NCBI GenBank assembly: GCA_902531985.1
Contig: CACAGG010000008.1
Span: 1-38,160 of the forward strand
Source: an uncultured marine group III euryarchaeote
GTDB taxonomy: Archaea > Thermoplasmatota > Poseidoniia > MGIII > CG-Epi1
Reading direction: 5' to 3'
DNA: 38,160 bases
Under the pieces are notes generated by a model. It was given only the letters and a program-made list of their open reading frames with translations, was not told where the DNA came from and made no database searches. Below are positions 1-27,390 of the stretch, piece by piece (the stretch's first letter is position 1; every line of letters starts with the position of its first letter). The position numbers were made by a program, and so were the translations under genes.

Positions 1-1
1 T

Positions 2-1009: not shown

Positions 1010-1026
1010 TAATCATAAATAAAATA

Positions 1027-2484: not shown

Positions 2485-2509
2485 TAATTCATAGTCATTA
2501 GGATAAGTT

Positions 2510-3433
2510 GTGACAATAAAGAGTAGTTTCATTGATTGTTTCATTCCAGATAGGATAGGATCGATTAATACTTCTGGAAGGATACCTAAATTATCACCAG
2601 ATTTATCATATTCGACAGGAAATTTTTCAGTATTACGGCAAAGGCATTCTGAACTACAATTAGATTCAGTTAATCGTACTAACCATAGATTAGAAACGAT
2701 ACTTAATAGAACAAATTGGCAACCTAATTTCTTCAAAGATAAATTAATTTTGGAATGCGGTTGTGGAGCTGGTCCAGATACTGAAATTCTGCTATCATTA
2801 GGTGCAAAAGTAGTGTCCGTAGATATTGCAGGTCTTGATGTTGCTTACAATAATATCGGTAATAATCCTAAATCACAATTTCTTCAAGCCAGTCTTCTCG
2901 ATTTACCATTTAAAGAAAATCATTTTGATATAGTATTTTGTCATAGAGTTATTCAGCATACTCCAAATCCAGATAAATTCTTGAGAAATATATTAAGATA
3001 TGTTAAACACTCTGGCAATGTTTTTATCCATTCTTATGCAAGGACATGGACACAAATGGTTAGATGGAAATATGCACTTCGTCCTTTAACTACTAAAATG
3101 CCACCGAGCGAGCTATATGATAGAATTCAAAGTTTAGCTCCTTTTTTGTTCCATTTTTGTAATAAATTAGATGATATTGGAAAATTCGGTAAACTAATTA
3201 AGCGCATCTTTGTTCCATTTTATAGTTATAGAAATAATGATTTCTTTAAAGAAAAGTCAGATAAGTGGATAATGGAATACGGGATACATGATACTTTTGA
3301 TGCACTGTCGCCAAAATATGACAATCCACTCAGTTGCACAAGATTTGAAAAAATAGCAAAAGAAATTTTAACTTCAAAAAATATAGATTGGCATATCTTG
3401 GAAAAGCCAGGTATTACCTTGCTCCGAAGCTAA
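2510..3433 (+). CDS. Class I SAM-dependent methyltransferase
   Basis: 307 residues from a GTG start; no closer in-frame ATG fits better. The SAM-binding glycine-rich motif I is LECGCGAG (81-88), the acidic end of strand 2 is VSVD (about 102-105), and the post-motif region reads FDIVFCHRVIQHTPNPDKFLRN (139-160 region), the typical Methyltransf_11 pattern. The N-terminal 70 residues and the C-terminal 120 are extensions without a domain I can name. A role in methylating a glycan or a phosphoramidate group is suggested by its place directly before the phosphoramidate-type genes, since C. jejuni also encodes methyltransferases next to its glutamine-kinase cluster. The SAM fold is certain; the acceptor is inference. 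Confidence 0.82.
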   Translation: MTIKSSFIDCFIPDRIGSINTSGRIPKLSPDLSYSTGNFSVLRQRHSELQLDSVNRTNHRLETILNRTNWQPNFFKDKLILECGCGAGPDTEILLSLGAKVVSVDIAGLDVAYNNIGNNPKSQFLQASLLDLPFKENHFDIVFCHRVIQHTPNPDKFLRNILRYVKHSGNVFIHSYARTWTQMVRWKYALRPLTTKMPPSELYDRIQSLAPFLFHFCNKLDDIGKFGKLIKRIFVPFYSYRNNDFFKEKSDKWIMEYGIHDTFDALSPKYDNPLSCTRFEKIAKEILTSKNIDWHILEKPGITLLRS

Positions 3434-3484
3434 TTTTATAAGAAGAAAGTATAATTTACGCATAATATAAATAAATTTTAATTT

Positions 3485-6400
3485 ATGAAGGCAATAGTTT
3501 TAGCAGGCTTAGGTTCAAAAGAACTTCCTAAAAATCCGAATTTTCAAACTAGTTTGACGTGGATTATTAATTCACTGCAAAATTCAGGTTTAAAGGACAT
3601 AAATGTAGTTGCAGGAAAAGAAACAGAGGATCTGGTTTCTATATCCAAAGAAGTCAATGTAATATACAATGATAATTGGGCTAAAACAGGCCCACTTGAG
3701 TCGCTTCTACTTTGCGAGGATGAAATTATAGGCTCAGATATTTTAGTTTCATTTGGAGACGTAGTCTATAACACAGATTTCATAAATAACTTCATTTCTA
3801 AAATTGATAGAAATAAAATCAACATATTGACGGATAAGAGGTGGCTAAAAAGATTTAACAGATCTCAAGATTCTATAAACAAAGCCGAAAAAGTAGAGGT
3901 TAACAAAGAAGGTTTTGTTATAAAAGCAGACCGTAATTTTAATGATATAAATAAAATATCAGGGGAATATACAGGAATATGTTTTCTGAGTAAAGATCAT
4001 AATGAGGAACTAATATCTACTATCAGATCAATTGTTAATTGTAAAACAAAGAACAGAAAATACCCCTTTGGTTTTATGGATTTATTCAGTGAAATGATCA
4101 ATAAGAAATATGAACTGAAAAACTACTATACCGAAGATAATTGGGCCGAATTAGACAATCTTAATGATTTTTATAATTTTACTTTTGGTAATAAATCCAA
4201 GACCCTCTTTAATCTTAAAGGCCAATTGAAGCACGCAAAAATATTAACACAAGTGTCATTTGACATAAGTACTTGGAATAAAGATAAGGACGCTATTATT
4301 GATAGAGTTCAAGACCACTTTAGAAATGATAAATTAATCGTAAGAAGTAGTTCAATAAGTGAAGATTCGTTTGAAAGTTCAATGGCTGGTAAATTCAAAT
4401 CGTTAATAGGAATAGACAGAGATAATCGTTTATTAGTTAGAGAGGCCGTGGAGGAGGTGATTGATAGCTATGGTAAAAGTAAAAATAATAACGATTTAGT
4501 TTTCATACAGCCCTTACTTCCAAATGTAACCATTTCTGGTGTTGTTTTCACATGTGATATGAAGACTGGTGCGCCTTATTATTGTGTTAATTATACTAAG
4601 TCTAACGAAACAGACATAGTTACATCAGGAGGAAAAGGAAAGCATTATTTGTACTACCAGCATAAAAGTATTAAGTCAACAAATAAAAATCAATATATGT
4701 CTAAGTTGATAAATGCAGTAAAAGAAATTGAAAAATTAGTAGACAATAGTATGATTGATATAGAGTTTGCATTTGATTTAGATGAAAAATTGTATATTTT
4801 TCAGGTAAGGCCTATTGCTAGTGAAATAGCAGTTCAGAGTTATGGTAAACATGAAAACTTAGAAACAATTAAAGATAAAATTAAAGACTTAGAAAATGTT
4901 TTTTCACCAAAACCCAATATTAGCGGACAAACAACAATTCTTGGAAAGATGCCTGATTGGAATCCAGCAGAACTTATTGGTACGCGCCCTAGCCCTCTTT
5001 CCAAATCTCTTTTTCATCGCCTAATAACTAAAAAAGCTTGGAGAGTTGCTAGGGGCGATATAGGTTACTATAATCCTAAAAATGAAGAACTTTTGTTAAT
5101 GATTTTTGGCCAACCGTTCATTGATGTTCGCAACAGTATAAATTCATTTACACCTAAAGACCTCCCACACCACATAAGAGAGATGCTTGTTAATGAATCA
5201 ATAGAATTCCTTAATAAAAACCCACATTTACATGACAAGTTGGAATTTGATGTTGCAACAACTTGTTACAGCCCCTATTTTTCTAATAAAATAAATAGAT
5301 GGAAAGAATTTGGTTTTAAGGATAAAGAAATAGAGCAGATGTCATATTTTTTTAGAAAACATACTGAGAAAATGATAAACGGTTTTTTAGTGAAGCATGA
5401 TAACTTGCTCACCCTCGTTGAAAAATTAGATATTTATAGGAAAGAAATAATTAACAGAAATGACATTGATAAAATCTCAAAGGTAGAAAAGTTAATCACA
5501 AGTTGTGAAAAATTAGGTACAATTCCTTTCTCAACACTTGCTAGGTTTGCGTTTGTGGGAAACACATTTCTAAAATCTTTTGTAAACGAAGAGATAATAC
5601 CTAAGAGTTCTTATGATTCATACTTAAATTCAATAAACACAGTAGCCACAGAATTATTAGATGAATTGGAAAATCTAAAAAAAGGCATTACAAGCATGGA
5701 TAAGTTCTTAGCTAGATTTGGCCATTTACGGCCAGGTACTTTTGACATAACTTCATTAAGATACGATCAAGCTCCTGATTTATATTTTGATTTAGAGGAC
5801 AGCAGATTTGACAGTAAAAATAGCAGTATAATTTCAAGTTTCAAACTAAATTCAGAAGAAAAATCAAAAATTGGAAAGTTATTGAAAGAATTGAAATTAG
5901 AAATTGAACTTGATACATTTCTCGATTTTATTGAGAAAAGTATTAAAGGTCGAGAATATTCAAAGTTTATATTTACTAGAAGCATTAGTGACAGTTTTAA
6001 TCTGCTTGCAGAATGGGGTCGAGAAAATGGTCTTTCTAAAAAGGATATATCCTTTATTGATTACAATTTCTTGACAAAAATGAATTCTAAATCAGAGAAA
6101 GAATCCGACCTTCAATTATTGAATAATCTCGTCAAAATCGGAAAAGAAGATTTTGAATTTAATAATCATTTACTATTGCCAGATTTAATTTGTAATCCCC
6201 GTGATTTAGTTCATTTCCATTTACCAACAAATAAGCCAAATTTTGTTACCAATAATTCAGTTTCTGGAGAGGTAGTTAAGATTGATAACAATCAAGAATC
6301 TTTTTCAATCTCAGACAAAATAGTTATGATTGAGAGTGCAGATCCGGGTTATGATTGGATATTTACACATAATATCAAGGGGTTAATTACAAAGTATGGC

Positions 6401-6541
6401 GGCGTAGCTTCACACATGGCAATCAGATGTGCAGAATTTAATTTACCTGCAGCAATAGGCTGTGGTCGCCAATTCGATACTTTCTCAACAAATGACAAAT
6501 TGATAATAGATTGTTCAAATAATTTAATTAAAAGAGTATAA
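3485..6541 (+). CDS. Fusion: nucleotidyltransferase-like domain plus L-glutamine kinase-like (PEP-synthase family) protein
   Basis: 1018 residues. Residues 1-235 have a nucleotidyltransferase fold: MKAIVLAG at the start, the metal aspartate D92 in VSFGDVVYN and the closing AELDNLNDF (221-229). The signature glycine/Arg/Lys loop is degenerate (AGLGSKELPKN). Residues about 245-445 are a PPDK-type ATP-grasp domain (VRSSSISEDSFESSMAG, 286-302; IEFAFD and FQVRPI, 425-444). The long middle contains FGHLRPGTFD (745-754). Residues 915-1018 are the swivelling phosphohistidine domain with catalytic H977 in GGVASHMAIRCAE. There is no PEP/pyruvate TIM-barrel, so this is not true PEP synthase. The ~770-residue kinase part matches the size and architecture of C. 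jejuni Cj1418, which phosphorylates the glutamine side-chain amide. The downstream hydrolase and cytidylyltransferase support that reading. The specific substrate remains inferred. Confidence 0.8.
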   Translation: MKAIVLAGLGSKELPKNPNFQTSLTWIINSLQNSGLKDINVVAGKETEDLVSISKEVNVIYNDNWAKTGPLESLLLCEDEIIGSDILVSFGDVVYNTDFINNFISKIDRNKINILTDKRWLKRFNRSQDSINKAEKVEVNKEGFVIKADRNFNDINKISGEYTGICFLSKDHNEELISTIRSIVNCKTKNRKYPFGFMDLFSEMINKKYELKNYYTEDNWAELDNLNDFYNFTFGNKSKTLFNLKGQLKHAKILTQVSFDISTWNKDKDAIIDRVQDHFRNDKLIVRSSSISEDSFESSMAGKFKSLIGIDRDNRLLVREAVEEVIDSYGKSKNNNDLVFIQPLLPNVTISGVVFTCDMKTGAPYYCVNYTKSNETDIVTSGGKGKHYLYYQHKSIKSTNKNQYMSKLINAVKEIEKLVDNSMIDIEFAFDLDEKLYIFQVRPIASEIAVQSYGKHENLETIKDKIKDLENVFSPKPNISGQTTILGKMPDWNPAELIGTRPSPLSKSLFHRLITKKAWRVARGDIGYYNPKNEELLLMIFGQPFIDVRNSINSFTPKDLPHHIREMLVNESIEFLNKNPHLHDKLEFDVATTCYSPYFSNKINRWKEFGFKDKEIEQMSYFFRKHTEKMINGFLVKHDNLLTLVEKLDIYRKEIINRNDIDKISKVEKLITSCEKLGTIPFSTLARFAFVGNTFLKSFVNEEIIPKSSYDSYLNSINTVATELLDELENLKKGITSMDKFLARFGHLRPGTFDITSLRYDQAPDLYFDLEDSRFDSKNSSIISSFKLNSEEKSKIGKLLKELKLEIELDTFLDFIEKSIKGREYSKFIFTRSISDSFNLLAEWGRENGLSKKDISFIDYNFLTKMNSKSEKESDLQLLNNLVKIGKEDFEFNNHLLLPDLICNPRDLVHFHLPTNKPNFVTNNSVSGEVVKIDNNQESFSISDKIVMIESADPGYDWIFTHNIKGLITKYGGVASHMAIRCAEFNLPAAIGCGRQFDTFSTNDKLIIDCSNNLIKRV

Positions 6542-7077
6542 TGTATTCTTACAATATTGGTAATGATTTAAAGGATAACATAACTTATAGTTTCTCTCTA
6601 TTCGAGGGAGGAAATTTTCTAGAGTATTACTATGAACATCGGAGCAGAGCTATAAAGAATCTAAATGGTATTATAGATTCAAGCAAAGAAAAGAAAAGTA
6701 TTAAAGATAATTCGGGAGTAACTGGTACAATTTTAAATCAGATTCTAGAAAAAATTAAAGATAGTGGAGCAGCAGATAATTTGGATTTTTACGTGGTTAA
6801 ATTTGAAGTGAATAAAATTTTATATGATTCCTATGATGAGGGACGTCCTCAAGGAGCCTACAATAATATAAAAAATTACATACTTTTAAGTTATTGTTGT
6901 TTAGAAAAATATAAAATTAGTGGTCGCTTAAAATATCTTAATACAAGTCTAAAACTAAACGACATAATTATATCTTCCTTAAAGAATATTTCAGATGTTG
7001 AAGATTTAGTGATGAGTTTAGAGATTATTAACTTAGAATTATCAATTATTAAAGAAATTGTAAAAAGGCATGATTAA
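6541..7077 (+). CDS. Unknown protein in the phosphoramidate-type operon
   Basis: 178 residues. The ATG overlaps the stop of the kinase gene by one base (TAATG) and the next gene overlaps the end by 8 nt, so it is translationally embedded in the run. I do not recognise a family. It has no signal peptide and no clear membrane segment. Composition is rich in Asn, Lys, Ile, Leu, Ser and Tyr, and the second half looks mostly helical, with alternating hydrophobic residues from about 85 to 175. A short distinctive stretch is YDEGRPQGAYNN (about 98-109). It could be an accessory subunit or scaffold of the neighbouring kinase or formyltransferase. The tight coupling is seen; the role is unknown. Confidence 0.7.
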   Translation: MYSYNIGNDLKDNITYSFSLFEGGNFLEYYYEHRSRAIKNLNGIIDSSKEKKSIKDNSGVTGTILNQILEKIKDSGAADNLDFYVVKFEVNKILYDSYDEGRPQGAYNNIKNYILLSYCCLEKYKISGRLKYLNTSLKLNDIIISSLKNISDVEDLVMSLEIINLELSIIKEIVKRHD

Positions 7078-7765
7078 AGAAAATATAGCCCTCTTGTTAC
7101 ATCCATCATTGAGAGGCCGTGCATACATTCAAAGAATGATTAAAAATCATTTGATTCCTTCTGAAATTTTATTGATGGATGATAGATTAAGTGAAATTGC
7201 AGTCCCTCCTAATCTAGAATTTGCAGATTATTATAATCCTTATGAGAAACCAAGTATAACATTAACAGACAATAATATTGATTTTTCTATAGTTTCTTCG
7301 ACCAATTGTAATGATACCTTAGTTATTGATGAATTGAAAAAGTTCAAATCAAAATGGGTCATTTTTTCAGGAGGCGGTATACTCCAAAAAGAGATATTAT
7401 CAATTGGGAAAAATTTCATACATGTGCACCCAGGAAAATTACCTCAGTACAGAGGAAGTACTTGTTTCTATTATAGCTTAATAAAAGAGGGTAAATGCTT
7501 CTGTACAGCCTTTGTCATGGATGAGATGTTAGACTCAGGTAAAATTTTAAGGTCTGAAGAATTTAATCCTCCAAAAGGCGTTGATCTCGATTATGTTTTT
7601 GATCCATGGATGCGTTCTGTTACAATGGTTAATATTCTAAATGATTTGAATTTCATTAAAGAAGTTAAACTACATGAGAACAAATCTCAAAACTCAGAGA
7701 TGTATTATATTATACATCCTGTGTTGAAGCATATATCAATTCTAAAAAATAACAATGAAATATAA
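7070..7765 (+). CDS. Formyltransferase-fold protein with an altered catalytic triad
   Basis: 231 residues related to methionyl-tRNA, GAR and sugar N-formyltransferases. The core signature is HVHPGKLPQYRG (118-129), followed by the loop motif MDEMLDSGKI (150-159). In characterised members the catalytic triad is Asn-His-Asp from NxHPSLLPxYRG and LDTGD. Here His (H120) and Asp (D155) are kept, but the Asn is replaced by H118. The protein is too short for a tRNA-binding C-terminal domain, so methionyl-tRNA formylation is unlikely, and archaea generally do not formylate initiator tRNA. It starts 8 nt inside the unknown gene and ends 11 nt inside the hydrolase gene. A role on an amino sugar, glutamine derivative or phosphoramidate intermediate is inference; the substituted Asn may mean different chemistry. 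Confidence 0.75.
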   Translation: MIKENIALLLHPSLRGRAYIQRMIKNHLIPSEILLMDDRLSEIAVPPNLEFADYYNPYEKPSITLTDNNIDFSIVSSTNCNDTLVIDELKKFKSKWVIFSGGGILQKEILSIGKNFIHVHPGKLPQYRGSTCFYYSLIKEGKCFCTAFVMDEMLDSGKILRSEEFNPPKGVDLDYVFDPWMRSVTMVNILNDLNFIKEVKLHENKSQNSEMYYIIHPVLKHISILKNNNEI

Positions 7766-8417
7766 AATCTCCGTCACTAGTAGAATAGTAGATACAAAAG
7801 AGTATCATGAAATCCGAGATGCTGTTAGTCATGATTTGATTGATTACTTGGTATCTTTGAATGCCAAACCTTTGATTATTCCCAATAATGTGACTATTGC
7901 TGAGGAATATCTAAAGGAAAGCAAACTTTTATTTTTAAGTGGAGGTAACAATGTATCAGATAGTCTTAGTTTATCAGATAAAGATTATTCGTCATCCATA
8001 ATTCGAGATTCTGTTGAGAAGATTTTAGTAAAAAAAGCTATAAAGGAAAGAATTCCAATAATAGGGATATGCAGAGGGATGCAATTTCTAAATTGTTATT
8101 TTGGAGGAACGCTAGAAAAATTAACCTCATCACATATCCATGATTCAGGTGAGCATAAAATTTATTTTTCAGGAGATAGTTCCATATTAACTAAATTTGA
8201 TTCTTTGACTGTGAATTCATATCATAATTTTGTAATCAAAAAATTAGGTAAAAATCTAAAGTCTTTAGCTAAATCTGATGATGGGCATACTGAAGCTTTT
8301 GAACATAGTATTCATCCAATATTTGGTTTAATGTGGCATCCGGAGAGAAAAGCTAGTACACCAAATTTTGATATTTTCAATAAAAATTTAATAAAAAAAA
8401 TATTGGACCAATATTGA
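7755..8417 (+). CDS. Class-I glutamine amidotransferase-like hydrolase, probable gamma-glutamyl-CDP-amidate hydrolase
   Basis: 220 residues of the PuuD/GATase1 fold standing alone, with no synthase partner. The nucleophile is C106 in the elbow GICRGMQFLN, and the His/Glu pair is H195 and E197 in GLMWHPER. The oxyanion-side motif FLSGGNNV lies at 60-67. In C. jejuni the comparable stand-alone protein Cj1417 removes glutamate from CDP-glutamine to release cytidine diphosphoramidate. Here the gene lies between a glutamine-kinase-like gene and a cytidylyltransferase, which are exactly the enzymes of the preceding steps. The alternative is a gamma-glutamyl-polyamine or gamma-Glu-GABA hydrolase, but no polyamine gene is nearby. 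The family is clear and the substrate call rests on the neighbours. Confidence 0.78.
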   Translation: MKYKISVTSRIVDTKEYHEIRDAVSHDLIDYLVSLNAKPLIIPNNVTIAEEYLKESKLLFLSGGNNVSDSLSLSDKDYSSSIIRDSVEKILVKKAIKERIPIIGICRGMQFLNCYFGGTLEKLTSSHIHDSGEHKIYFSGDSSILTKFDSLTVNSYHNFVIKKLGKNLKSLAKSDDGHTEAFEHSIHPIFGLMWHPERKASTPNFDIFNKNLIKKILDQY

Positions 8418-9205
8418 GAGCAATCATTCTATCAGCAGGTAAAGGCAGTCGCTTAAGTGCACATACATTTGATAAACCCAAAGGAATGATTAAGTTTGTA
8501 GGGAAAACTTTACTTGAACATCAGATAGATGTATTACAATCTAATGGCGTCAGTGATATAGTAATTATTAGAGGATACAAGGCGCATAAAATTAATTTTG
8601 AAAATATAACGTATTTTGATAATGTTAATTTTGAAAATACAAATATGGTTGAGAGTCTTTTATGTGCAGAAGATAAATTAAATGTTGAATGTTTGGTGAC
8701 TTATTCTGATTTGATATTAGAAGATGCCGTGATTAATAAAATGGTTAAATCGGAATATGATATTGGCGTTTTAGTTGATGAGAATTTTGAAGATTACTGG
8801 AAAGCCAGGCTAGGTGAAAAATATTCAGAAGATATGGAAAGTTTGGTTATTTCAGATAATAAAATCATGAATTTAGGAAATCCTAATCCAAGTTTAACCC
8901 AAGTTGATGGAAGATATGTTGGTGCAATTAAATTTTCTGCAAGAGGGATAAAAACATTATTAAAAATTTGTAAAATTAATAAGAAAAAAGAATCACTTAA
9001 TTCCTTTAATACTCGCAAATTTAAAAATTGGCATATGACAGACTTACTGCAATGTATAATAGATAATAATTTTTCTGTGAATCCAATTTTAATCTCTAAA
9101 GGCTGGTTAGAATTTGATACAGACAAAGATTATGATCTGTATACGGAATGGTATATGAAAAATAAACTTAAAAAGTTTATTAGTTTAGGTTCATCTGATG
9201 TTTAA
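8414..9205 (+). CDS. Sugar-nucleotidyltransferase-fold cytidylyltransferase, probable CTP:phosphoglutamine type
   Basis: 263 residues from a TTG start that overlaps the previous stop (TTGA), a 4-nt overlap implying coupled translation; the RAIILSAG strand begins at once, so no later start is possible. The nucleotide loop is intact: SAGKGSRLS (7-15) followed by KPKGM (21-25). The metal aspartate is D99 in VTYSDLIL and the closing motif is WLEFDTDKDYD (231-241), the pattern of LicC-like and Cj1416-like cytidylyltransferases. By context it would transfer CMP to phosphoglutamine before hydrolysis by the 7755 gene product. Phosphocholine or a phosphorylated sugar are alternative substrates. Unlike the NTase domain fused to the kinase, this copy keeps all signature residues. 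Confidence 0.8.
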   Translation: MRAIILSAGKGSRLSAHTFDKPKGMIKFVGKTLLEHQIDVLQSNGVSDIVIIRGYKAHKINFENITYFDNVNFENTNMVESLLCAEDKLNVECLVTYSDLILEDAVINKMVKSEYDIGVLVDENFEDYWKARLGEKYSEDMESLVISDNKIMNLGNPNPSLTQVDGRYVGAIKFSARGIKTLLKICKINKKKESLNSFNTRKFKNWHMTDLLQCIIDNNFSVNPILISKGWLEFDTDKDYDLYTEWYMKNKLKKFISLGSSDV

Positions 9206-10367
9206 AAAAAATGTCTTAATGGTCTGTTTAGATGGTGCACGTGTCGACATGTTGAACAGTTCTCACGAGCTGTCCACACTTTTTAGCCAAGGTTCGCTTT
9301 TCAATCAGTGTATTGTTTCTTCCCCTTATACTGTAGCGTCAATTCATTCAATTATGACTGGTATGTATGGTCACAGAAATGGTGTTGATGCTTACAATAA
9401 TATGTTTAGACTCAAAAAAAATCTTAAGACTTTACCAGAGTATTTGAATGAGAATGGATATTATACACACGCAGACATGTTAGGTGAAGCAGTATTATCT
9501 AAAAGAGGTTTTGATGAATCAACAATACATGATGAAAATTCAATTAGTTCAGAGGATTTACTGGAATATCATAATGAAATAATAAGTAAGGCTCATAAAA
9601 AAGGTAACAACTTTTTTGTTTTCCTACAGTATAGCAAAATACACACAGGTTGCGTTGCTAATGTAGCTAAAAAGTTTGATGATTTAGATGAGGGGTATTA
9701 CACCACTCAGCAATATCAAGAGAATAAAAAAAATTTTTCATCTTATATGAAAGATTCAGGAATATATGCATCAGGCTTAGTTAAACATCTTGAAGCACTT
9801 AATATCTTAGATGATACAGTTGTGATTTTTTTTTCTGACCACGGTACTAGCCTAGGAGAGAAATACGGAGAAAAAATGTATGGTTCTTTTGTTTATGACT
9901 ATACAATAAAGACATTTTTCCACTTTTTAAATCCTATATTCCCTAATGTCAAGATCAATACACAAGTAAGATGTATAGATATTATGCCTACTATACTAGA
10001 TTTTCTAGGAATTAGTATTGATTCTAATTTGCTATCTTTTCAAGGTGATTCAATTATGCCTTTAGTCGAATATCACAAGAAGAATAGATTACATAAGTTT
10101 TTTCTTAAAAAGGTAAAAGATAGGATAGCTTATGTAGAAACCGGAGGTTTAGGAGGCCTTTGGCCTTCACCTAAATCAGCTAATGTTAGGTGTGTCCGAA
10201 CAAGAAAATGGAAATTGATTCATAATCTTACTCCAGATAATTTTGAGCTTTACAATTTAGAAAAAGATCCTCGAGAGGAAAAAAATTTAGCAAGTATAGA
10301 ACTCAAGCTCAAACATCAAATGCAAAAATATATGTTAAACATAATGGAGGGTAGTAAGAAGCCTTAA
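9198..10367 (+). CDS. Alkaline-phosphatase/sulfatase superfamily enzyme with a threonine nucleophile
   Basis: 389 residues, no signal peptide or membrane segment. Metal ligands of the superfamily are visible: D12 in VCLDGARVD, H149 in SKIHTG and D214-H215 in FFSDHGTS. The nucleophile position is T45 in SSPYTVASIHSIMTG, so the Cys/Ser-x-Pro-x-Arg formylglycine motif of true sulfatases is absent. The C-terminus carries the familiar sulfatase-like ending with VRTRKWKLIHN and ELYNLEKDPREEKNLA. A Thr nucleophile is typical of phosphotransferases and phosphodiesterases of the superfamily (for example LtaS and EptA types). The gene overlaps the cytidylyltransferase by 8 nt, so a phospho- or phosphoramidoyl-transfer or removal role in this pathway is plausible. 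The superfamily is sure; the reaction is inferred. Confidence 0.8.
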   Translation: MFKKNVLMVCLDGARVDMLNSSHELSTLFSQGSLFNQCIVSSPYTVASIHSIMTGMYGHRNGVDAYNNMFRLKKNLKTLPEYLNENGYYTHADMLGEAVLSKRGFDESTIHDENSISSEDLLEYHNEIISKAHKKGNNFFVFLQYSKIHTGCVANVAKKFDDLDEGYYTTQQYQENKKNFSSYMKDSGIYASGLVKHLEALNILDDTVVIFFSDHGTSLGEKYGEKMYGSFVYDYTIKTFFHFLNPIFPNVKINTQVRCIDIMPTILDFLGISIDSNLLSFQGDSIMPLVEYHKKNRLHKFFLKKVKDRIAYVETGGLGGLWPSPKSANVRCVRTRKWKLIHNLTPDNFELYNLEKDPREEKNLASIELKLKHQMQKYMLNIMEGSKKP

Positions 10368-10387
10368 TTTCTTAAAGAAAATTTACC

Positions 10388-11386
10388 ATGTATGCTTACA
10401 TAATAACTTTTTTATTTTTATTGTTTATACTTTATGTTTATTTTTCTAGTTGGTCATATTCAAATAAATTAACATTATTTTTTATCGCATGGATTGAATC
10501 AATAGTTGTAATGACTGTTTTTGTATATCCTAAATCAGTTCTTGAAGGAAAATTCCCACTTCCGCCAATACTTTTTTTCTTTTTAGTACTTAGTTTTCTT
10601 ATTTACAAATGCTTAAAGCTTCAAGATTATCCTAAAAATAAGGATAATAGTTTAGTTGGTTCAATTTATTTTAGGTCAATAGGTATAATTATTATATTTT
10701 CAACAATCCTTCTGGAAGTTTTTATATTTGATGGTTCTTTCAGTGCTAATAGCCTATCATTGATTATTTTTGGTTTCTATTTGGTTATATTTAATTTTTT
10801 AGATATGCATATTAATTATAAAAAAATGTTATTTATTTTTTTATGCCTTTTTGTTTTATCACATCCAGTAGCAACAGTCATAATTAAAATATTAAAAAAT
10901 AATTTTGATCTCTTTAACGATAGTGCATGGTCGGATTCTTTAGTTCATCTAACTTTAGGTGTACCTGTTGCCAATTTTCTCTCTCTTTTTGGTTTTGAGG
11001 TTTGGACAACAGGGAATACAATTTTCTATATAGATAAAACAGTGGGCCATTCCAGTTCAGTTTCTATAGCAACAGGTTGTTCAGGTATTGATTCAGTTGT
11101 CGTTTTTATTTGTGCATTATTCAGTTACCTTTATGTGGAGTACAAAATTCTTGATCCGTTTACTTTAGCTTTATTTCTCCTTGGAGTAATGATGTCCTAT
11201 TTTGCCAATATATTAAGGATGAGTATAATAATAATATCTGGCCATTATTGGGGCAATGACGCGCTCCAATTTGCACATACAAATGTTGGTTGGTTGATAT
11301 TTACATTCTGGATTTTTATTTTTTGGAGGTTGATGGATTCATTTATTATTGATAATATTGTGGAGAATTTAAAATCAGAAAGATGA
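10388..11386 (+). CDS. Archaeosortase/exosortase family transpeptidase
   Basis: 332 residues, about eight predicted hydrophobic segments. All three family catalytic residues are present in order: C231 in ATGCSGID, R277 in FANILRMS and H297 in FAHTNVGW. In characterised archaeosortases (ArtA of Haloferax) the Cys cleaves a C-terminal tripartite sorting signal and links the protein to a lipid. Bacterial exosortases of this family are commonly encoded among exopolysaccharide genes, which parallels this island. The N-terminal ~180 residues are an extra hydrophobic extension. The gene ends inside the start of the next one (ATGA overlap), so the two membrane proteins are probably made together. No protein in this window ends with an obvious PGF-CTERM-type tail, so targets lie elsewhere. 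Confidence 0.87.
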   Translation: MYAYIITFLFLLFILYVYFSSWSYSNKLTLFFIAWIESIVVMTVFVYPKSVLEGKFPLPPILFFFLVLSFLIYKCLKLQDYPKNKDNSLVGSIYFRSIGIIIIFSTILLEVFIFDGSFSANSLSLIIFGFYLVIFNFLDMHINYKKMLFIFLCLFVLSHPVATVIIKILKNNFDLFNDSAWSDSLVHLTLGVPVANFLSLFGFEVWTTGNTIFYIDKTVGHSSSVSIATGCSGIDSVVVFICALFSYLYVEYKILDPFTLALFLLGVMMSYFANILRMSIIIISGHYWGNDALQFAHTNVGWLIFTFWIFIFWRLMDSFIIDNIVENLKSER

Positions 11387-13029
11387 AATTAAGTCATAAA
11401 CTTTTTTTTGCAACAATAATGTTGTTTAGTTTTTGTTTAAGATATCCAGATAGTTATTTAGAACAAGGTTCAGATTCATTTGGCAATCACCTCGTATCTC
11501 AGGCACTAATTAATACTGGAAATGATCAAAGAATTATTAATCTTTTTTCATTTTTTGGTTTATTTCCAGGTTCTAATAATACAGGAGGTTCATTTTTGCT
11601 TAGTGCCTTTTCGATTGTTACAGATTTGACAGTCCATCAGTCAATCTTTATTCTTCCTATTTTACTTTCTATTATAGGTTCATTCTCAATGTTCCTATTT
11701 GCAAGAGAAACTACGAGAAATGTGACAATATGTCTTTTTGCAGTTTTACTCTTTTCAACAGCACGATATTATTTATCATTTACAGAGTTTACGTATAGTT
11801 ATAGAATGGTTTACATGTCATTATTACCTGCTTTTCTCTTTCTTTTTATTAAATTGTTTAAAATTAATTTTAGCTTTGATTTTGGATTTTGGTTTCTTAT
11901 ATTATTTTTATCTTTTGCACTTCTTTCAATACATAGAATGATGTATCTTAATGGTTTATTGGTAGTGTCTTTGATATTTTACTATATTATAAATTATTTT
12001 TCAACTAGATTTAAATTCACAAATAAATTTCTAAAGCCGATTATAATATATTCTCTTTTGATAATACTTTATGTATCATCAGTAAGTGGTTATTTTTTCT
12101 ATTCAGGTTCATCAGAGTATTCACTTGAGAGGGGTAAAAAGTTTTTCGATAGCGATTCGTTACATTTTACAATAATAAATCTGGGTTTATTGTACGCAAT
12201 GCAATTTGGTTTTTTACTGCCATTTGCAGCGTTAGGTTTTGTGACAATTATTTTTAGAAAAAGCCCAATTCATAATTATTTAGTATTCGTAACTTTGTCA
12301 TATTCTATGATATGGACAGATTTGACCTATGGCTCATTTGCTTATTTGCCAGTGATTGTTGTCTTAGTTTCTTTGGGTTTGGAATCTTACCATTTATTTT
12401 TATCTAAAAGAATTAATAAAAACACAGCGTATTCAATACTTATTGTTATAATATTATTTTTACAAGCTAGTCCTGAATTTTTTACAGTAAAGGAAAGTGA
12501 ATACGATTATATCAACGAGGGGGTAACTTATTCAAGAGACTTAGAATACATAAAAGCTCTTGATGCTGGTTTGTACATAAAGACTACTAGTTACAGTGAT
12601 AAACCCATTATTTCTGCAGTTGTTTCAGGTTCTCGAATTTCTGCTTTTTCAGATTCTCCAGCCCCTGTTGCCACAACAAATCCTAATGCTGAATTTTTCG
12701 AGTACAAACAAATAGAATTAATAGAATTCTTATCAGGAGATTTAAATTTTTTATTTGAAGTTGCTGATGATAATCTTCAGCGTTCAATCCGATATGATGT
12801 TTTCTTAAGTGGTCAAGAATGGGATGCAGAATACACAAGAATAAATATGAATTACATATTTAGAGGAAATGATACATATATTCTTGCTCTTTATTCAGAA
12901 ACGAATCTCATTAAAACAGATAATGATGAATGGGTGGAAAGCCCTTTTATTATATCAGCAATAGAAAGTAATTATAAATCTTATGATAATGGTTTCCACA
13001 ATTTATACAATCTAGATCATACAAATTAA
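11383..13029 (+). CDS. Polytopic membrane protein, GT-C glycosyltransferase-like
   Basis: 548 residues: an N-terminal hydrophobic helix, a first outer loop with EQGSDSFGNH (27-36), then roughly ten membrane segments up to about residue 365 and a soluble C-terminal domain of about 180 residues. The acidic residue in the first loop (D31), followed by a nearby His (H36), resembles the layout of GT-C enzymes that use dolichyl-phosphate sugars, such as AglB and PMT types. I see no WWDYG-type motif, so it is not an oligosaccharyltransferase. It starts 4 nt inside the archaeosortase gene. A role in transferring a sugar on the outer face, or in processing the archaeosortase product, is inference from this coupling. 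Membrane topology is clear; the enzyme class is moderate. Confidence 0.6.
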   Translation: MKLSHKLFFATIMLFSFCLRYPDSYLEQGSDSFGNHLVSQALINTGNDQRIINLFSFFGLFPGSNNTGGSFLLSAFSIVTDLTVHQSIFILPILLSIIGSFSMFLFARETTRNVTICLFAVLLFSTARYYLSFTEFTYSYRMVYMSLLPAFLFLFIKLFKINFSFDFGFWFLILFLSFALLSIHRMMYLNGLLVVSLIFYYIINYFSTRFKFTNKFLKPIIIYSLLIILYVSSVSGYFFYSGSSEYSLERGKKFFDSDSLHFTIINLGLLYAMQFGFLLPFAALGFVTIIFRKSPIHNYLVFVTLSYSMIWTDLTYGSFAYLPVIVVLVSLGLESYHLFLSKRINKNTAYSILIVIILFLQASPEFFTVKESEYDYINEGVTYSRDLEYIKALDAGLYIKTTSYSDKPIISAVVSGSRISAFSDSPAPVATTNPNAEFFEYKQIELIEFLSGDLNFLFEVADDNLQRSIRYDVFLSGQEWDAEYTRINMNYIFRGNDTYILALYSETNLIKTDNDEWVESPFIISAIESNYKSYDNGFHNLYNLDHTN

Positions 13030-13069
13030 TAGTTTTAGAATATAGAGAGAGCCCTTATATTTAATTGAA

Positions 13070-14629
13070 ATGAGTTCTAATAAAAACATAAAAAAAACGA
13101 TCGTTAATATATCCTCTAAGGTAACTTTTTACACTTTATTTGGATACGTAATAAATATACCTTCTAAAATTTTAGTTGCAATATTTCTTCAGCCAGTAGG
13201 ATATGGTTTATTGAGTATTGCAAACTTAATTCTGACATATTCAAGCTATTTAGATTTGGGAACCTTTGCCAACATGCGGCGAAGAATATCTTTACTTTTA
13301 GGGGAAGATAAAAAAGAAGAAGCTAATGACATTGCAGCTGTAACTGCAGCTTGGATGTCCGTAACAACTGTATTTATAATATTAGCATTATTTCTTTTGT
13401 ATATTCTTGGATATAATTTTAGTGGTCTACTAAATCCTACAAATATAGTAATTATTGTTTTTCTTTTGATAGCAAATAGATTACGTACATTTTTAGCAAA
13501 TTATTGTAGAGGGTTTGGCGTCTTTGATGTTATAGTAACAAAATATTCTGTATCTAGTATTTTAACACCATTACTATCGGTTGTATTAGCGTATTATTTC
13601 CATGTTTCAGGAGTTTTATTGGCTAAAACTTTAGCCTCATATGTAATACTGGTTGTTTTTTTATATTATTTTTACAAAATCGATTCACCATCTATTTTGT
13701 TTTCTTTTTCTTACAATAAAACTATTTTGCATATTAGTGAATCTTTCCCCCTTTTTTTGAGGAAGTGTCTTACTGAGATTTATTCAACTTTAGATATATT
13801 GATAGTGACATTAATTTTTCCAATATACAGTTTGGGAATCTATGCTTTTTCAAAAGGAATATTTGTATCTTTAAAAGGTGCTGTAAGTTCAATCACGGCA
13901 GTTACAGATCGAAATATGCTTTTTGAAATTAGCAGCGAAGGTCATTCAGATAAAAGTATTTTTAAAAAATATTTCGAATCAAACATGATATGCTTTTTTA
14001 TGATTCTTTCTATACTTATAGGAATTTCTTATATCTTCTTTGAAATAATTATAGCAAATTTTATTCCTGAATATACGGCATCACTAGAAATAGCACAGTT
14101 ATTTTTTATTGAAGTAATACTAATAAAATCATCAGGTTTAGCTCTTGGCTATCTTAATGCAATAGGTCGGCTAAGATTGTACAATTCTATATATTTTATG
14201 GGATTAATAACCAAATTTTCTTCCATTTCCCTTTTAATTTATTATGACAGTATCAGTCTAAGTGCAATAGTTATGTGTTCAATTATTGGGAGTCTCTTGA
14301 TATTTATACTATCTCTTCATTTTACACTCACAGATATTTATTCCAGCAGACTCCAAAGCTTAAGGATAAGTATTCCATTCGTAATTATATTGGGGTCTTT
14401 GTATTTCTTGTTATCAGAATTTTCTTCAGTTATAGATTACCAACAGATTTCAGATTTAGTTTATTATAAATTAATAATTTATCTTATAGCTATTGGAGCA
14501 TTGACCTCAGTTATCTTTTGTGCATTCACACTCATTATTTTTTCCATTTTTTTCATTAAGATGAGACCCGAAAAACAGCTGTATAGTCTTATTCAGATGT
14601 ATATTTATCCGAATTCTGAAAAAAATTAA
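13070..14629 (+). CDS. Oligosaccharide flippase (Wzx/MOP superfamily)
   Basis: 519 residues with about 12-14 hydrophobic segments spread evenly over the whole length and short basic loops. The N-terminal part, with FGYVINIPSKILVAIFLQPVGYGLLSI (about 24-50) and LDLGTF at 57-62, follows the polysaccharide-transport-protein pattern of the MOP exporter superfamily. Such proteins move lipid-linked glycan units across the membrane. Its presence with the GT-C protein and sugar-nucleotide genes suggests that a lipid-linked glycan is assembled inside and exported. The gene is separated by 40 nt from the GT-C gene. The family call is firm; the cargo is unknown. Confidence 0.85.
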   Translation: MSSNKNIKKTIVNISSKVTFYTLFGYVINIPSKILVAIFLQPVGYGLLSIANLILTYSSYLDLGTFANMRRRISLLLGEDKKEEANDIAAVTAAWMSVTTVFIILALFLLYILGYNFSGLLNPTNIVIIVFLLIANRLRTFLANYCRGFGVFDVIVTKYSVSSILTPLLSVVLAYYFHVSGVLLAKTLASYVILVVFLYYFYKIDSPSILFSFSYNKTILHISESFPLFLRKCLTEIYSTLDILIVTLIFPIYSLGIYAFSKGIFVSLKGAVSSITAVTDRNMLFEISSEGHSDKSIFKKYFESNMICFFMILSILIGISYIFFEIIIANFIPEYTASLEIAQLFFIEVILIKSSGLALGYLNAIGRLRLYNSIYFMGLITKFSSISLLIYYDSISLSAIVMCSIIGSLLIFILSLHFTLTDIYSSRLQSLRISIPFVIILGSLYFLLSEFSSVIDYQQISDLVYYKLIIYLIAIGALTSVIFCAFTLIIFSIFFIKMRPEKQLYSLIQMYIYPNSEKN

Positions 14630-14704
14630 TAGGACGTAATATACCTTGCAAACGTTATCAACAATTACACTTTTGTATGTTAGATTAAGATATTCTTTAC
14701 TTTT

Positions 14705-15436
14705 ATGAACAGGTTCAGATATCAATTGGGCAATTTAATTCGTTTTTTGTCGGCACCTTGGCAGCAATGGAATATTTCTCCTGAAAAGGCTTGCACAATA
14801 TTTGGCAGCAATTTTGGTAAATCAGGCTGGAATCATATTAAACAAACTTTAGAAGAATATGATTCCAACAATCAAATTAAAGCGAAAGACACCACTCTTT
14901 GGAAATTTCTGAAAGAATTCAAACCAAGAAACATATTGGAAGTAGCAGGTGTAGATACAAAAAAAGAGTTTGACTTGTTTACATATCCTTGGTCTAGCTT
15001 TACTAAAAACTCTTTAAAAAAGAGTCCCTTACTTTCAAGATTTTGCGGCCCATCTACAGACGAATTTATAGAAGAAGAGTTTAAACGTATAATAGCTTTA
15101 TACAAAAAGTTAAAAAAAGAGGGTTATAAACCTTATACATATCCCAATTCCTTTATATATGGTACATGGCTCACTTCAATGTCGGGAGCATCTCGTTTTG
15201 TCGTTTTGCAAGGCAATCATAGAATGTCAATACTCAGTCATTTAGGTTACGTTAAGGTTAAGGTACGAACTCATAAGTCTTATCTAAAAAATATCTCTGA
15301 ATCAGATTTAGAATCATGGGAATTTGTTAAGTCTGGAGACTATAGTTCCGATGAGGCACTACACGTTTTCAACTTATTCTTTCAAAATAATGGTAATCAC
15401 ATCAAAAATATGATTAATAAATCTAGGATTTTATAA
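14705..15436 (+). CDS. ParB/sulfiredoxin-like (GNHR motif) protein of unknown function
   Basis: 243 residues, soluble, no signal peptide. The recognisable part is VVLQGNHRMSILSHLGYVKVKV (166-187 region), in which GNHR (170-173) and the following small-hydrophobic-Gly pattern match the nucleotide-binding core of ParB/Srx-fold proteins, where the motif is GxHR. ParB members bind CTP at this place and sulfiredoxins bind ATP. The N-terminal 160 residues are not recognised. There is no ParA or HTH nearby, so plasmid partition is unlikely. Its place between a flippase and an alkaline-phosphatase-like gene suggests a sugar- or phosphate-modifying role. A 75-nt gap precedes it and holds nothing I can identify. 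Confidence 0.6.
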   Translation: MNRFRYQLGNLIRFLSAPWQQWNISPEKACTIFGSNFGKSGWNHIKQTLEEYDSNNQIKAKDTTLWKFLKEFKPRNILEVAGVDTKKEFDLFTYPWSSFTKNSLKKSPLLSRFCGPSTDEFIEEEFKRIIALYKKLKKEGYKPYTYPNSFIYGTWLTSMSGASRFVVLQGNHRMSILSHLGYVKVKVRTHKSYLKNISESDLESWEFVKSGDYSSDEALHVFNLFFQNNGNHIKNMINKSRIL

Positions 15437-15478
15437 AATATGATATTTAATTATCTCATTAAAATCAGGAGAGAAGAA

Positions 15479-15484
15479 GGAGGT
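15479..15484 (+). promoter_or_regulatory. Shine-Dalgarno sequence for the 15496 gene
   Basis: GGAGGT ends 11 nt before the ATG at 15496, within a purine-rich stretch. It is one of few strong ribosome-binding sites in the island, where most genes start by overlap with the previous one. It supports translation of 15496 from a transcript with a leader. Confidence 0.55.
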
Positions 15485-15495
15485 TTTGATCTTTT

Positions 15496-17403
15496 ATGAG
15501 TAAAATAAATAATAAGGATGATGATTCATCTTTAACTACAATCATAAATCAGGAAGGCCACTCCCCTATTATTTTTTATGATGATTACACCACCTTCAGA
15601 GAGCTTCCTAAATCTAAATTTTGGAATATTAAATATTACTTTAAACAAATTTTAAACATCTTGTTGCCTTCATACAGAGAAGGTAAAACCTCCAAAGATT
15701 TTCTATCTTTAAATCAATTATTAAAGAGAGGCATACCTAATCAAAGATTTAATTTAATTATAAAAGAAAATTATTCAGATTATCGCGTACATTCTAGCCG
15801 TGAGGCAAAATGTTTCAAAGAAATTTCTAAAGAAAAACCAGCACATGTAATTACCAAAATAATAGATGAAAAATCGGAAGATTTAGTTTTCAGTCTCTTC
15901 CTAAATAAACAACTTCGCTTTGTAAAAAATATATTAATTGAAGGCTACATCCAGAATATAGGCGATTACAAAAAAACATTCAGAATCAATGTAGACCAGA
16001 ATGGAATCGATAGTTTGTCTCACCCAACATATTGGTTGGATTTGAAAATTGGTGTAAATTATTCTGATTTGCCTAGTAGAGATAAACCCATTAATTTATT
16101 CCTCACAAATTTAGTTGTTGATTATAAAGAAAACAATGTTGGAATAATACCATTTAAAATATTGTCATCAGAAATTAATTCTGAATCTAGTACTACAACC
16201 AAAAAACAAATACTTTTGTTGTCATTTGATGGAATCACTACAGATGACTTACTAAATAACGAAAAATCAACCGAGCTGTTTCCTTCGATAAGTAAGTTTG
16301 CTAAAACAAACCATTGGTTTAGGAATGCAATAACTTCTTCAACAGTTACAGCTTCTTCAGCAGCTTCACTGATTACTGGTTTAAACTTGCCAAGACATTT
16401 AATTTATAATTATGAAGGTAGTTACAATTCACCCAATCTAAGCTCTATTTCTACTAAAATAAAAACACTTGGCCAAAAAATGCGTGAAAAAAACATTCCT
16501 TCTTATGGATTGTTTACTTATGGCCGCTGGACTCCTCAATATGGCCTTTCTCGGGGCTTTAGTAACTATCGTTCAGTTAATAGCGGCGCTTTGCAGAATT
16601 ATCCTTGGTTAGAAGAGAGTATTAAGTTGATATCTAATAATAAGTCGAATTCTTTTTTATTTGCTATGCACCATCCAGGTGGCCATTCACCATTTATATC
16701 TAAAATTTCTGACAATTACGATAATGCAGAATTTTCAGGCTACATAGAGAATATGAAATACGTTGATACTTTCTTTTGTGCTATTTTAGATTATTTAAAA
16801 AGTAATGACCTTTATGATAATACATTAATCATTTTTGTTGCAGATCATGGTCGCTCTCTTCGAAGTGAATTTAACCGTAGAGTTTTTCAATTTACTGAAG
16901 ACAGACTTAGAGTACCACTAATTATTAAGCATCCAAATTGGGAAACGGTTTCACCAACCTATGATCTAGATAAACATACAAGTGCACAAACTACCATTCA
17001 TGAAATAATTTCTGATTTCATTGGATTTGATAGGAATAATGTATCAGATTCGTCCTTACGTTTATTTGATGGAATTACATGGGTTTGCGAGACTGTAGAT
17101 TATGAGGTCGGTAATTCTATAGGTTTAGTAGGATATGATAGTAAATCGAAGTATACAATTTATTATGAAATTGACTTTCAGAATTATAAATTAGGTAATC
17201 CTCGTGATATTAAAAAATATAATTTAGATAAGTTTTCAATAGCTCAAGAAGGTATGGACTTACTCGATCCAGATGAAAGAGAAAAAGTAATTGTGTCTTC
17301 GAAGAATTATATTAGTAAGAGTCTGAATTTCTCAAAATATAATAGGCCTCAATCAGTAGGAAAAAATACGTCAATGTTTTACAGTCCACCTTATTCTGAC
17401 TAA
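15496..17403 (+). CDS. Large alkaline-phosphatase/sulfatase superfamily protein with extra N-terminal domain
   Basis: 635 residues. Residues 235-600 are the alkaline-phosphatase-superfamily domain: D245 in LLSFDGIT, candidate nucleophile T285 in SSTVTASSAASLITG, H397 in PGGHSPF and D450-H451 in VADHGRS. T285 lies nine residues before the TG of the motif, the same spacing as T45 in the 9198 protein. There is no formylglycine motif, so a sulfatase is unlikely. Residues about 85-230 read as beta strands (LVFSLFLNKQL, VKNILIEGYIQN) and may bind glycan or a partner. There is no signal peptide or membrane segment, so it probably acts in the cytoplasm before export. It is preceded by a good Shine-Dalgarno. 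Phosphotransferase or phosphodiesterase action on a glycan precursor is inference. Confidence 0.75.
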   Translation: MSKINNKDDDSSLTTIINQEGHSPIIFYDDYTTFRELPKSKFWNIKYYFKQILNILLPSYREGKTSKDFLSLNQLLKRGIPNQRFNLIIKENYSDYRVHSSREAKCFKEISKEKPAHVITKIIDEKSEDLVFSLFLNKQLRFVKNILIEGYIQNIGDYKKTFRINVDQNGIDSLSHPTYWLDLKIGVNYSDLPSRDKPINLFLTNLVVDYKENNVGIIPFKILSSEINSESSTTTKKQILLLSFDGITTDDLLNNEKSTELFPSISKFAKTNHWFRNAITSSTVTASSAASLITGLNLPRHLIYNYEGSYNSPNLSSISTKIKTLGQKMREKNIPSYGLFTYGRWTPQYGLSRGFSNYRSVNSGALQNYPWLEESIKLISNNKSNSFLFAMHHPGGHSPFISKISDNYDNAEFSGYIENMKYVDTFFCAILDYLKSNDLYDNTLIIFVADHGRSLRSEFNRRVFQFTEDRLRVPLIIKHPNWETVSPTYDLDKHTSAQTTIHEIISDFIGFDRNNVSDSSLRLFDGITWVCETVDYEVGNSIGLVGYDSKSKYTIYYEIDFQNYKLGNPRDIKKYNLDKFSIAQEGMDLLDPDEREKVIVSSKNYISKSLNFSKYNRPQSVGKNTSMFYSPPYSD

Positions 17404-17478
17404 AGTTTTTGTAAAATACTAATTATATACAAGAGTTTTTATTTCAGATTTGAAAAACATTATTATAGCTGATGGCTT

Positions 17479-18297
17479 ATGGAAAAAATAAATATGAATA
17501 AAATAGGAATAATAGGATATGGAGTCGTCGGTAAAGCAATAGCCACTACATTTGATAAAAGCTTTGAAATTATTAAATATGATAAAAATATTAGTTTAAA
17601 CAATTTTGAAGACTTATTTTCCTGTCCGCACATATTTCTAGCAGTACCAACCCCTTTTGATTTAAAACAAAATCGGGTTGATGATTCAGCAGTTTACTCT
17701 TCACTTGAGCGCTTGAATAATTTTGAATACAAAGGCGTTGTAATAATAAAAAGTACATTACCTCCAACTTCTACTAGAAATTATACCAATGATTTCAATT
17801 TAAACATAGTTTTCAATCCCGAATTTTTAAGAGAGAGCGTTTCACCTGAAGAAGATTTTGCAAATCAGAAAATAGTAGTTTTGGGAATTGATAGCGATCG
17901 TAATTTTGAAGTTACTAAAGATCTTTTTTTGAATGTTTTATCTGCAGATTGTATTTATCATAAGTGTACTTTTGAGGAAGCTGAATTAATTAAGTATAGT
18001 CAAAATATGACTCTTTCATCTAGAGTAGCAATATCTAATTTAGTTTTTGATGCTTGCAAAAAATATAATGTAGATTATAACAGCTTAAAGAAAGTAGCAT
18101 TTGATTTTTTCCCTATTTTAGGACCACAGATGACTCAAGTTCCCGGTCCAGATGGTAAGAGAGGATTTGGAGGTAAATGTTTACCAAAGGATTTATTAGG
18201 CTTCAATTCTATTTTTGAATCAGAGATAGTTTCTTCAATAATTGATTATAATAATAGCCTTCGTGATGATATACCAAGAAAAAATGACAACAAATAG
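17479..18297 (+). CDS. UDP-glucose/GDP-mannose dehydrogenase family protein, short form without C-terminal domain
   Basis: 272 residues against about 430 for the family. The N-terminal Rossmann domain starts GIIGYGVVGKA (10-20), VPTPF is at 56-60 and FNPEFLRE at 112-119. The catalytic cysteine C234 lies in GFGGKCLPKD. The protein stops about 35 residues later, so the C-terminal UDP-binding domain (PF03720) is missing. The downstream DNA is an intact epimerase gene, so this is not a simple frameshift. The family oxidises the C6 hydroxyl of a UDP-sugar to a carboxylate. Loss of the third domain may change substrate or make it depend on a partner. A start at 17494 (MNKIGIIG) is equally possible. 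Confidence 0.82.
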   Translation: MEKINMNKIGIIGYGVVGKAIATTFDKSFEIIKYDKNISLNNFEDLFSCPHIFLAVPTPFDLKQNRVDDSAVYSSLERLNNFEYKGVVIIKSTLPPTSTRNYTNDFNLNIVFNPEFLRESVSPEEDFANQKIVVLGIDSDRNFEVTKDLFLNVLSADCIYHKCTFEEAELIKYSQNMTLSSRVAISNLVFDACKKYNVDYNSLKKVAFDFFPILGPQMTQVPGPDGKRGFGGKCLPKDLLGFNSIFESEIVSSIIDYNNSLRDDIPRKNDNK

Positions 18298-19246: not shown

Positions 19247-19270
19247 TTAAGTTTTATCACATCAGGATTA

Positions 19271-26958: not shown

Positions 26959-27390
26959 ATGATTTTCTGGTTTACAGGGCAACCAGGTAGCGGTAAAACA
27001 ACATTGGGTAAGGCATTGATTGAAGAATTAGACGATGTTTTTCACATAGATGGCGATGATTTACGTAGTTTATCAGCTAATGTAGATTATTCCGAGCAGG
27101 GTAGGATTACTAATATCAGAACAGCCCAATCGATAGCGATGTATTTAGATAATAAAGGGAAAAATGTAGTGGTATCTGTAATAGCGCCCTATAAGTGGCT
27201 GAGGGAAGAATTTAAAGATAGGCACAAGGTAAACGAAATATACCTTCATACTTCTGAAATAAGGGGAAGAGAACATTATTTTGTAGACGATTATGAAGCG
27301 CCTACAGAAAATTTTTTAGATTTAGATACGACAAATTTGTCAATTGAAGAATCATTGAAAATAATTTTGGAGTATTTTAATTATGATTGA
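26959..27390 (+). CDS. APS-kinase-family P-loop kinase, shortened lid; candidate CDP-amidate kinase
   Basis: 143 residues, shorter than the usual 170-200. Present are the P-loop GQPGSGKTT (7-15), DGDDLR (31-36), the substrate Arg/Asn set R49, N52, R54 and IAPY (75-78), then DDYEAP (110-115). The usual segment with the KGLYKKAR-type lid between the fourth strand and DxYEAP is largely missing (IRGREHYFVDDYEAP). There is no ATP sulfurylase, PAPS reductase or sulfotransferase in the window. In C. jejuni the APS-kinase relative Cj1415 phosphorylates cytidine diphosphoramidate, and that step is otherwise unfilled here. The gene starts directly at the metK stop and overlaps the next by 8 nt. The kinase fold is firm; the substrate is open between APS and another nucleotide. 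Confidence 0.75.
   Translation: MIFWFTGQPGSGKTTLGKALIEELDDVFHIDGDDLRSLSANVDYSEQGRITNIRTAQSIAMYLDNKGKNVVVSVIAPYKWLREEFKDRHKVNEIYLHTSEIRGREHYFVDDYEAPTENFLDLDTTNLSIEESLKIILEYFNYD

Follow-up and report, generated by a model that had tools for sequence, protein, structure and literature searches.

Among described systems, the closest counterpart of the locus presented here is the O-methyl phosphoramidate pathway of Campylobacter jejuni (Cj1415-Cj1418; EC 2.7.3.13), for which the cj1415-1418 gene set has been reported (PMC3907429) and in which Cj1418, formerly annotated as phosphoenolpyruvate (PEP) synthase or pyruvate phosphate dikinase (PPDK), is a glutamine kinase (PMC10971088, PMC6429109). Glutamine kinase was termed 'C. 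jejuni-specific' in a 2022 review (PMC9561416), and a 2025 paper predicted an O-methyl phosphoramidate cluster for Cobalt Borg (PMC12660748), which exists as an extrachromosomal element in methane-oxidising archaea. Our analysis of 38,160 nucleotides of DNA from an uncultured marine group III euryarchaeote (contig CACAGG010000008.1 of assembly GCA_902531985.1; this whole stretch is called the window) revealed the same three enzyme families, a predicted glutamine kinase, a hydrolase and a predicted cytidylyltransferase, in one operon, and it appears likely that this operon makes a nucleotide-activated phosphoramidate used for decorating a surface glycan. The operon comprises the following genes:

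3485..6541, + strand: K, predicted glutamine kinase, 1018 aa (NF004508; Pfam PPDK_N and PEP-utilizers)
6541..7077, + strand: X, helical protein, partner of F (no Pfam or NCBIfam match)
7070..7765, + strand: F, protein of formyltransferase fold (hidden Markov model, HMM, and Foldseek)
7755..8417, + strand: H, class-I amidotransferase-type hydrolase, 220 aa (best family NF045546)
8414..9205, + strand: N, predicted phosphoglutamine cytidylyltransferase, 263 aa, TTG start (Pfam MobA-like/NTP_transferase)
9198..10367, + strand: S, alkaline-phosphatase-superfamily (sulfatase-fold) protein (Pfam Sulfatase)

All of these genes lie on the same strand with successive gaps of -1, -8, -11, -4 and -8 bp, the last being the 8 bp shared by N and S, and these overlaps of 1-11 bp on a single strand indicate that K-X-F-H-N-S is one operon (3485-10367). 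As in C. jejuni, the three families are clustered in a surface polysaccharide locus. In contrast to the C. jejuni pathway, the window has a pseudo-nucleotidyltransferase (pseudo-NTase) fused to the kinase, X and F inserted, a candidate transferase of sulfatase fold and an archaeal host, and its cassette has no linked kinase for cytidine diphosphate (CDP)-phosphoramidate. The Cobalt Borg cluster, compared by description only, likewise has an in silico predicted cytidine triphosphate (CTP):phosphoglutamine cytidylyltransferase in an archaeal glycoconjugate region (PMC12660748), whereas the window is a contig with core genes on which kinase, hydrolase and NTase share one operon with X and F. In its glycoconjugate section, the Borg paper ascribes C-P bonds to O-methyl phosphoramidate; the compound has a P-N bond.

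The kinase K scored 863.1 bits against NF004508 (curated cut-off 501), compared with 71 bits against the PEP synthase model and 29 bits against that of rifamycin phosphotransferase. NF004508 (PRK05849) is titled only 'hypothetical protein', and we assume that Cj1418 is a member of it. A Pfam scan of the 1018 residues detected PPDK_N twice, with the better stretch at 273-368, together with the PEP-utilisers mobile domain at 944-1012, and found no PEP/pyruvate barrel. K thus has the ATP-binding and mobile phosphohistidine domains in common with PEP synthase and rifamycin phosphotransferase but is devoid of their barrel. H977 belongs, together with much of the ATP-binding region, to the set of positions at least 95% conserved among 85 homologues. 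The ATP-grasp and phosphohistidine kinase part occupies approximately residues 230-1018, and residues 1-230 are a degenerate copy related to N. The catalytic lysine was absent from all 12 fused NTase-K examples compared, with much of the remaining site retained, and this pseudo-NTase domain probably binds or channels the product without catalysis. The archaeal kinases of loci L060, L095, L118-L121 and L126 carry an N-terminal CTP_transf_like domain in place of the window-type NTase, a fusion that arose independently.

The best family for the hydrolase H was NF045546 (gamma-glutamyl-CDP-amidate hydrolase, Cj1417 type) with 134.6 bits, the runner-up model reaching 69. The same family was best for six cassette hydrolases of other genomes (95-147 bits), and as all of them and H itself fall under its curated cut-off, H is a distant homologue rather than a member of the NF045546 equivalog. 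The catalytic residues are nevertheless almost invariant among 67 homologues (C106 100%, H195 99%, E197 99%). In N, residues G9, G11, R13, K23 and D99 are each 100% conserved among 66 sequences; with the GxGxR...K motif and the metal-binding aspartate kept, the enzyme is predicted to be catalytically intact. The nearest solved structure is a LicC-type phosphocholine cytidylyltransferase, and the sequence of N resembles other NTases as well.

These data agree with an earlier note on this DNA, made by a model from the letters alone, which had described a PEP-synthase-like kinase without barrel and with H977, a stand-alone class-I amidotransferase with C106, H195 and E197, and an intact cytidylyltransferase. 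The note had also seen that the genes overlap; it overlooked X and F between kinase and hydrolase, the pseudo-NTase in residues 1-230 of K and the coupled S.

A genome-wide alignment-based scan yielded at least 570 confirmed relatives of K, the best 80 loci of which were used; association counts draw on these 80 top-scoring loci together with matches from plasmids and phages, and are uncorrected for phylogeny. Where 4.5 kb or more of downstream sequence was available (70 loci), H was present in 64, N in 66 and both in 63, and this joint recurrence of K, H and N argues that the triad is not a product of chance. Carriers of the three genes belong to a wide range of bacterial phyla and to several lineages of archaea, and on plasmids of Azospirillum, Pseudohalocynthiibacter, Vibrio, Agrobacterium and a deltaproteobacterium relatives of K have H and then N downstream, as in the window. 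In archaea, K, H and N stand together at 11 of 12 loci examined, at one of which the kinase is in separate, apparently broken pieces, and the twelfth locus has a partial kinase alone; a kinase above the cut-off was found in 7 of 279 sampled genomes of the phylum of G405 and in 3 of 295 of the phylum of G406. Furthermore, the genes are fused in several combinations: NTase-K (12 loci), CTP_transf_like-K (archaeal, L060, L095 and further loci), an N-terminal APS-kinase-K fusion (APS, adenosine 5'-phosphosulfate) at 8 loci, mostly of Acidobacteria (L020, L022, L023, L024, L033, L038, L039 and L051), K-H in L017 (652-3687, 1011 aa), APS-kinase-X in L032 and X-F in L035. Together, fusions and co-occurrence are strong evidence for a single pathway.

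The possibility that the trio belongs to ordinary metabolism, as a PEP synthase or rifampicin phosphotransferase, a gamma-glutamyl-GABA hydrolase and a sugar nucleotidyltransferase that are neighbours by chance, is scarcely credible, given the missing barrel of K, its 863 bits as opposed to 71 and 29, and the conservation of the triad in many phyla. True PEP synthase or rifamycin phosphotransferase, which the earlier note had named as the closest relatives that would speak against its reading, are thus remote from K. What this explanation has in its favour is that relatives of the three proteins receive these or similar names from automated annotation, as the note had anticipated.

On these observed family identities, intact active sites, gene orders and fusions, the substrates of K, N and H can be predicted by analogy with Cj1418, Cj1416 and Cj1417, respectively. 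In the proposed pathway, K would convert glutamine to phosphoglutamine, N would combine phosphoglutamine with CTP to give CDP-L-glutamine, and H would cleave the gamma-glutamyl group from CDP-glutamine, yielding CDP-phosphoramidate and glutamate. This succession is suggested by the co-occurrence and the fusions along with the published chemistry of Cj1418 and the cj1415-1418 cluster; the proposed CDP-glutamine and CDP-phosphoramidate steps follow the work on Cj1416/Cj1417 and the NCBIfam name. Transfer to the glycan might be performed by an enzyme that uses CDP-phosphoramidate directly, with S as the best candidate, and X and F might act on the phosphoramidate group or on the acceptor, replacing the usual methylation.

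Several points weigh against this pathway. The likeness to Cj1416-1418 was judged from family models and active sites, and H reaches 134.6 bits where the curated cut-off of NF045546 is 250. The operon contains no CDP-phosphoramidate kinase (Cj1415, APS-kinase family), a search of the genome (75% complete) turned up no TagF-like (PF04464) or Sulfotransfer_3 (PF13469) protein, and no assay of cassette enzymes outside Campylobacter was found in the open-access literature. At L014, L076 and L087, moreover, members of the kinase family stand with neither H nor N nearby, so that the kinase alone is no proof of the pathway; the function of these three kinases may differ. Of the Campylobacter-type pathway proposed in the earlier note, the three enzyme roles are well supported by family scores, active sites, gene order and fusions, and the correspondence ends at the lack of a linked CDP-phosphoramidate kinase, the additional X and F, the sulfatase-fold candidate transferase and the sub-threshold score of H.

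A further explanation is that K acts on another amide or amine and that the cassette makes a different gamma-glutamyl-derived nucleotide, sharing with Campylobacter the logic and not the chemistry. The status of H and N as only distant homologues by curated score, the kinship of N to LicC-type phosphocholine cytidylyltransferases and the varying accessory genes are compatible with it. We regard it as distinctly improbable, since the best model for H is that of gamma-glutamyl-CDP-amidate hydrolase by 134.6 against 69 bits, and the K-H fusion in L017 fits a gamma-glutamyl substrate.

The destination of the activated phosphoramidate is suggested by the gene neighbourhood. Other genes of the window include:

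2510..3433, + strand: S-adenosylmethionine (SAM)-dependent methyltransferase (Pfam Methyltransf_11)
10388..11386, + strand: archaeosortase/exosortase (TIGR04178, Exosortase_EpsH)
11383..19246, + strand: rest of the island, with membrane protein, flippase, Thr-type sulfatase-fold protein, nucleotide-sugar dehydrogenase and epimerase
26959..27390, + strand: APS-kinase-family protein, not assigned to the pathway

The flippase, the archaeosortase, which starts 20 bp downstream of S, and the nucleotide-sugar enzymes point to decoration of a surface glycan. The glycan island (approximately 1-19250) also includes an asparagine-synthase-type amidotransferase and a peptidase M14. Its nucleotide-sugar dehydrogenase (17479-18297) has 272 aa as compared with about 400 in profiles, runs into the gene at 18242-19246 and looks shortened at the C-terminus. 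It is conceivable that the trio provides activated phosphoramidate for a small molecule, a lipid or a protein and that the glycan island is incidental, as the cassette of L015 adjoins a CDP-alcohol phosphatidyltransferase and a LysE-family translocator and three kinases occur without H and N. Such a destination is unlikely, however, because the operon of the window runs on to the archaeosortase, upstream of the flippase and the nucleotide-sugar genes, and cassettes elsewhere neighbour glycan enzymes, TagF-like and sulfotransferase-like proteins.

The accessory genes set the window apart from the Campylobacter pathway. Pfam and NCBIfam scans gave no family for X, and its AlphaFold2 model (predicted local distance difference test, pLDDT, 84) had no convincing relative by Foldseek or HMM. 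F matched formyltransferases (HMM E 8.5e-10, Foldseek E 4.5e-12), but the catalytic asparagine of the Asn-His-Asp set is replaced by His118, and H118, H120 and D155 were invariant among 12 members. With His120 and Asp155 kept, the invariant H118 implies either a chemistry other than ordinary formyl transfer or a histidine in the role of the asparagine. F was present at 18 loci, 16 of them with X, and 16 of 17 X loci carried F as well; the 18 F loci were picked by score and by hand, weak generic formyltransferase matches having been dropped, one of which stands beside a methyltransferase. Of the archaeal loci examined, one (L121) has X and F as well. The cassette methyltransferase family occurred at 35 of 86 loci and at none of the 18 F loci (Fisher p 2e-5, uncorrected for relatedness), and X and F may stand in for it. 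The methyltransferase at 2510-3433, which ends 51 bp before K, is possibly part of the cassette. It belongs to a different family from the one at those 35 loci, and its candidacy as the usual cassette methyltransferase was rejected as unsupported, the two not being close.

Relatives of S occupy the same place directly after N in L028, L084 and L059, and a threonine stands at the nucleophile column in the aligned sequences (window, L028 and L084). A threonine nucleophile is typical of phosphotransferases, true sulfatases using cysteine or serine. Threonine and position after N together make S the best candidate for the phosphoramidate transferase. The same K, H, N, X and F are found in bacterial cassettes, for example those of Anaerolineales (L058), Nomurabacteria (L043) and Alteromonas ponticola (L048); L058 shares with the window the K-X-F-...-H-N order and the fused NTase domain, with a TagF-like gene lying between F and H. 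In contrast to the window, most bacterial cassettes of this type have an APS-kinase-like gene close by. We tentatively suggest, as a possibility that is rather doubtful at present, an undescribed F-type branch in which X and F add a cap other than O-methyl (e.g., a one-carbon unit on the nitrogen) and CDP-phosphoramidate is moved directly, without a 3'-phosphate step, by a Thr-dependent transferase of alkaline-phosphatase fold.

An APS-kinase-family gene was found near K at 54 of 86 loci. A sulfotransferase-like cluster, assigned by motif reading (Pfam being silent on the one member scanned), was seen at 20 loci, with APS-kinase accompanying it at 19, and by analogy with enzymes using 3'-phosphoadenosine 5'-phosphosulfate (PAPS) we infer that such loci may use a 3'-phosphorylated donor. 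The sole APS-kinase-family gene found (26959-27390) is 17 kb from the cassette. It lies between metK and a small gene resembling nicotinamide mononucleotide (NMN) adenylyltransferase (25819-27727), in an arrangement shared with the sister genome G007 (81-83% and 60% identity), and a search of 11 further genomes of the genus did not detect this APS-kinase. We did not adopt it as a Cj1415 counterpart, because the same block of S-adenosylhomocysteine hydrolase, metK and APS-kinase is present in G007, where no cassette is detectable; with G007 only 66% complete, this argument falls short of absolute.

The window corresponds to contig 8 in a genome of 971 kb that is 75% complete. Positions 19277-38126 are collinear with G007 at about 60-97% identity, and the G007 island at the same place differs, containing only diverged homologues such as an archaeosortase (39%), a dehydrogenase (52%) and an epimerase; this synteny and divergence indicate that the contig is archaeal and that the cassette sits inside a variable island. 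The collinear part encodes an 1822-aa protein (29635-35103) that looks secreted, contains FG-GAP, CARDB and NEW3-type repeats and is 87% identical in the sister species. A kinase above the cut-off was found in no other genome of the 390 sampled in the phylum. K clusters with a Flavobacteriaceae sequence (SH-aLRT 96), a tentative placement in view of long branches and compositional bias; the other archaeal kinases of the tree form two separate groups, and N is closest to DPANN archaeal sequences and to those of the candidate phyla radiation (CPR). The cassette was likely acquired horizontally, and its history is perhaps mosaic. The view that bacterial contamination or chimera formation accounts for the left half of the contig could draw on the GC content of that half (30.3% versus 36.0% in the right half), on the absence of such a kinase from the 389 other genomes of the phylum and on the bacterial nearest kinase. 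It is nonetheless very improbable, as the right half is syntenic with G007, which has a homologous archaeosortase and dehydrogenase in its corresponding island, GC at third codon positions is similar in both halves, and N is nearest to DPANN archaeal and CPR sequences. A viral origin was rejected: no relatives were found among viral contigs by a search that detects close relatives only, and the sole 'phage' match, L017, looks bacterial. On L017, labelled as a bacteriophage, no NTase was seen, and the remainder resembles a bacterial chromosome, with thioredoxin reductase-, phosphoribosyl pyrophosphate (PRPP) synthetase- and Mur ligase-like reading frames recognised by eye.

The earlier note's statement that no such pathway had been described in archaea no longer fully holds in view of the Cobalt Borg prediction (PMC12660748). 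No report of a cassette on an archaeal chromosome, of its breadth in bacteria or of the variant with X and F was found in the open-access literature, a coverage that included few subscription papers and no preprints. Biology has few bonds as uncommon as P-N bonds, and the phosphoramidate building block is not known biochemically outside Campylobacter capsules; the cassette has been hidden under names such as PEP-utilizing enzyme, gamma-glutamyl-GABA hydrolase and phosphocholine cytidylyltransferase. The cultured F-type carriers Alteromonas ponticola, Paraglaciecola arctica, Jannaschia donghaensis and Cohnella panacarvi open the chemical identity of the cap to direct test, and the F-type branch, if true, would imply that P-N groups with a variety of caps decorate the surfaces of bacteria and archaea. 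With the cassette so widely spread, P-N decoration would become a common feature of microbial surfaces, one that bears on recognition by phages and by the immune system in Campylobacter and, by extrapolation, beyond it.

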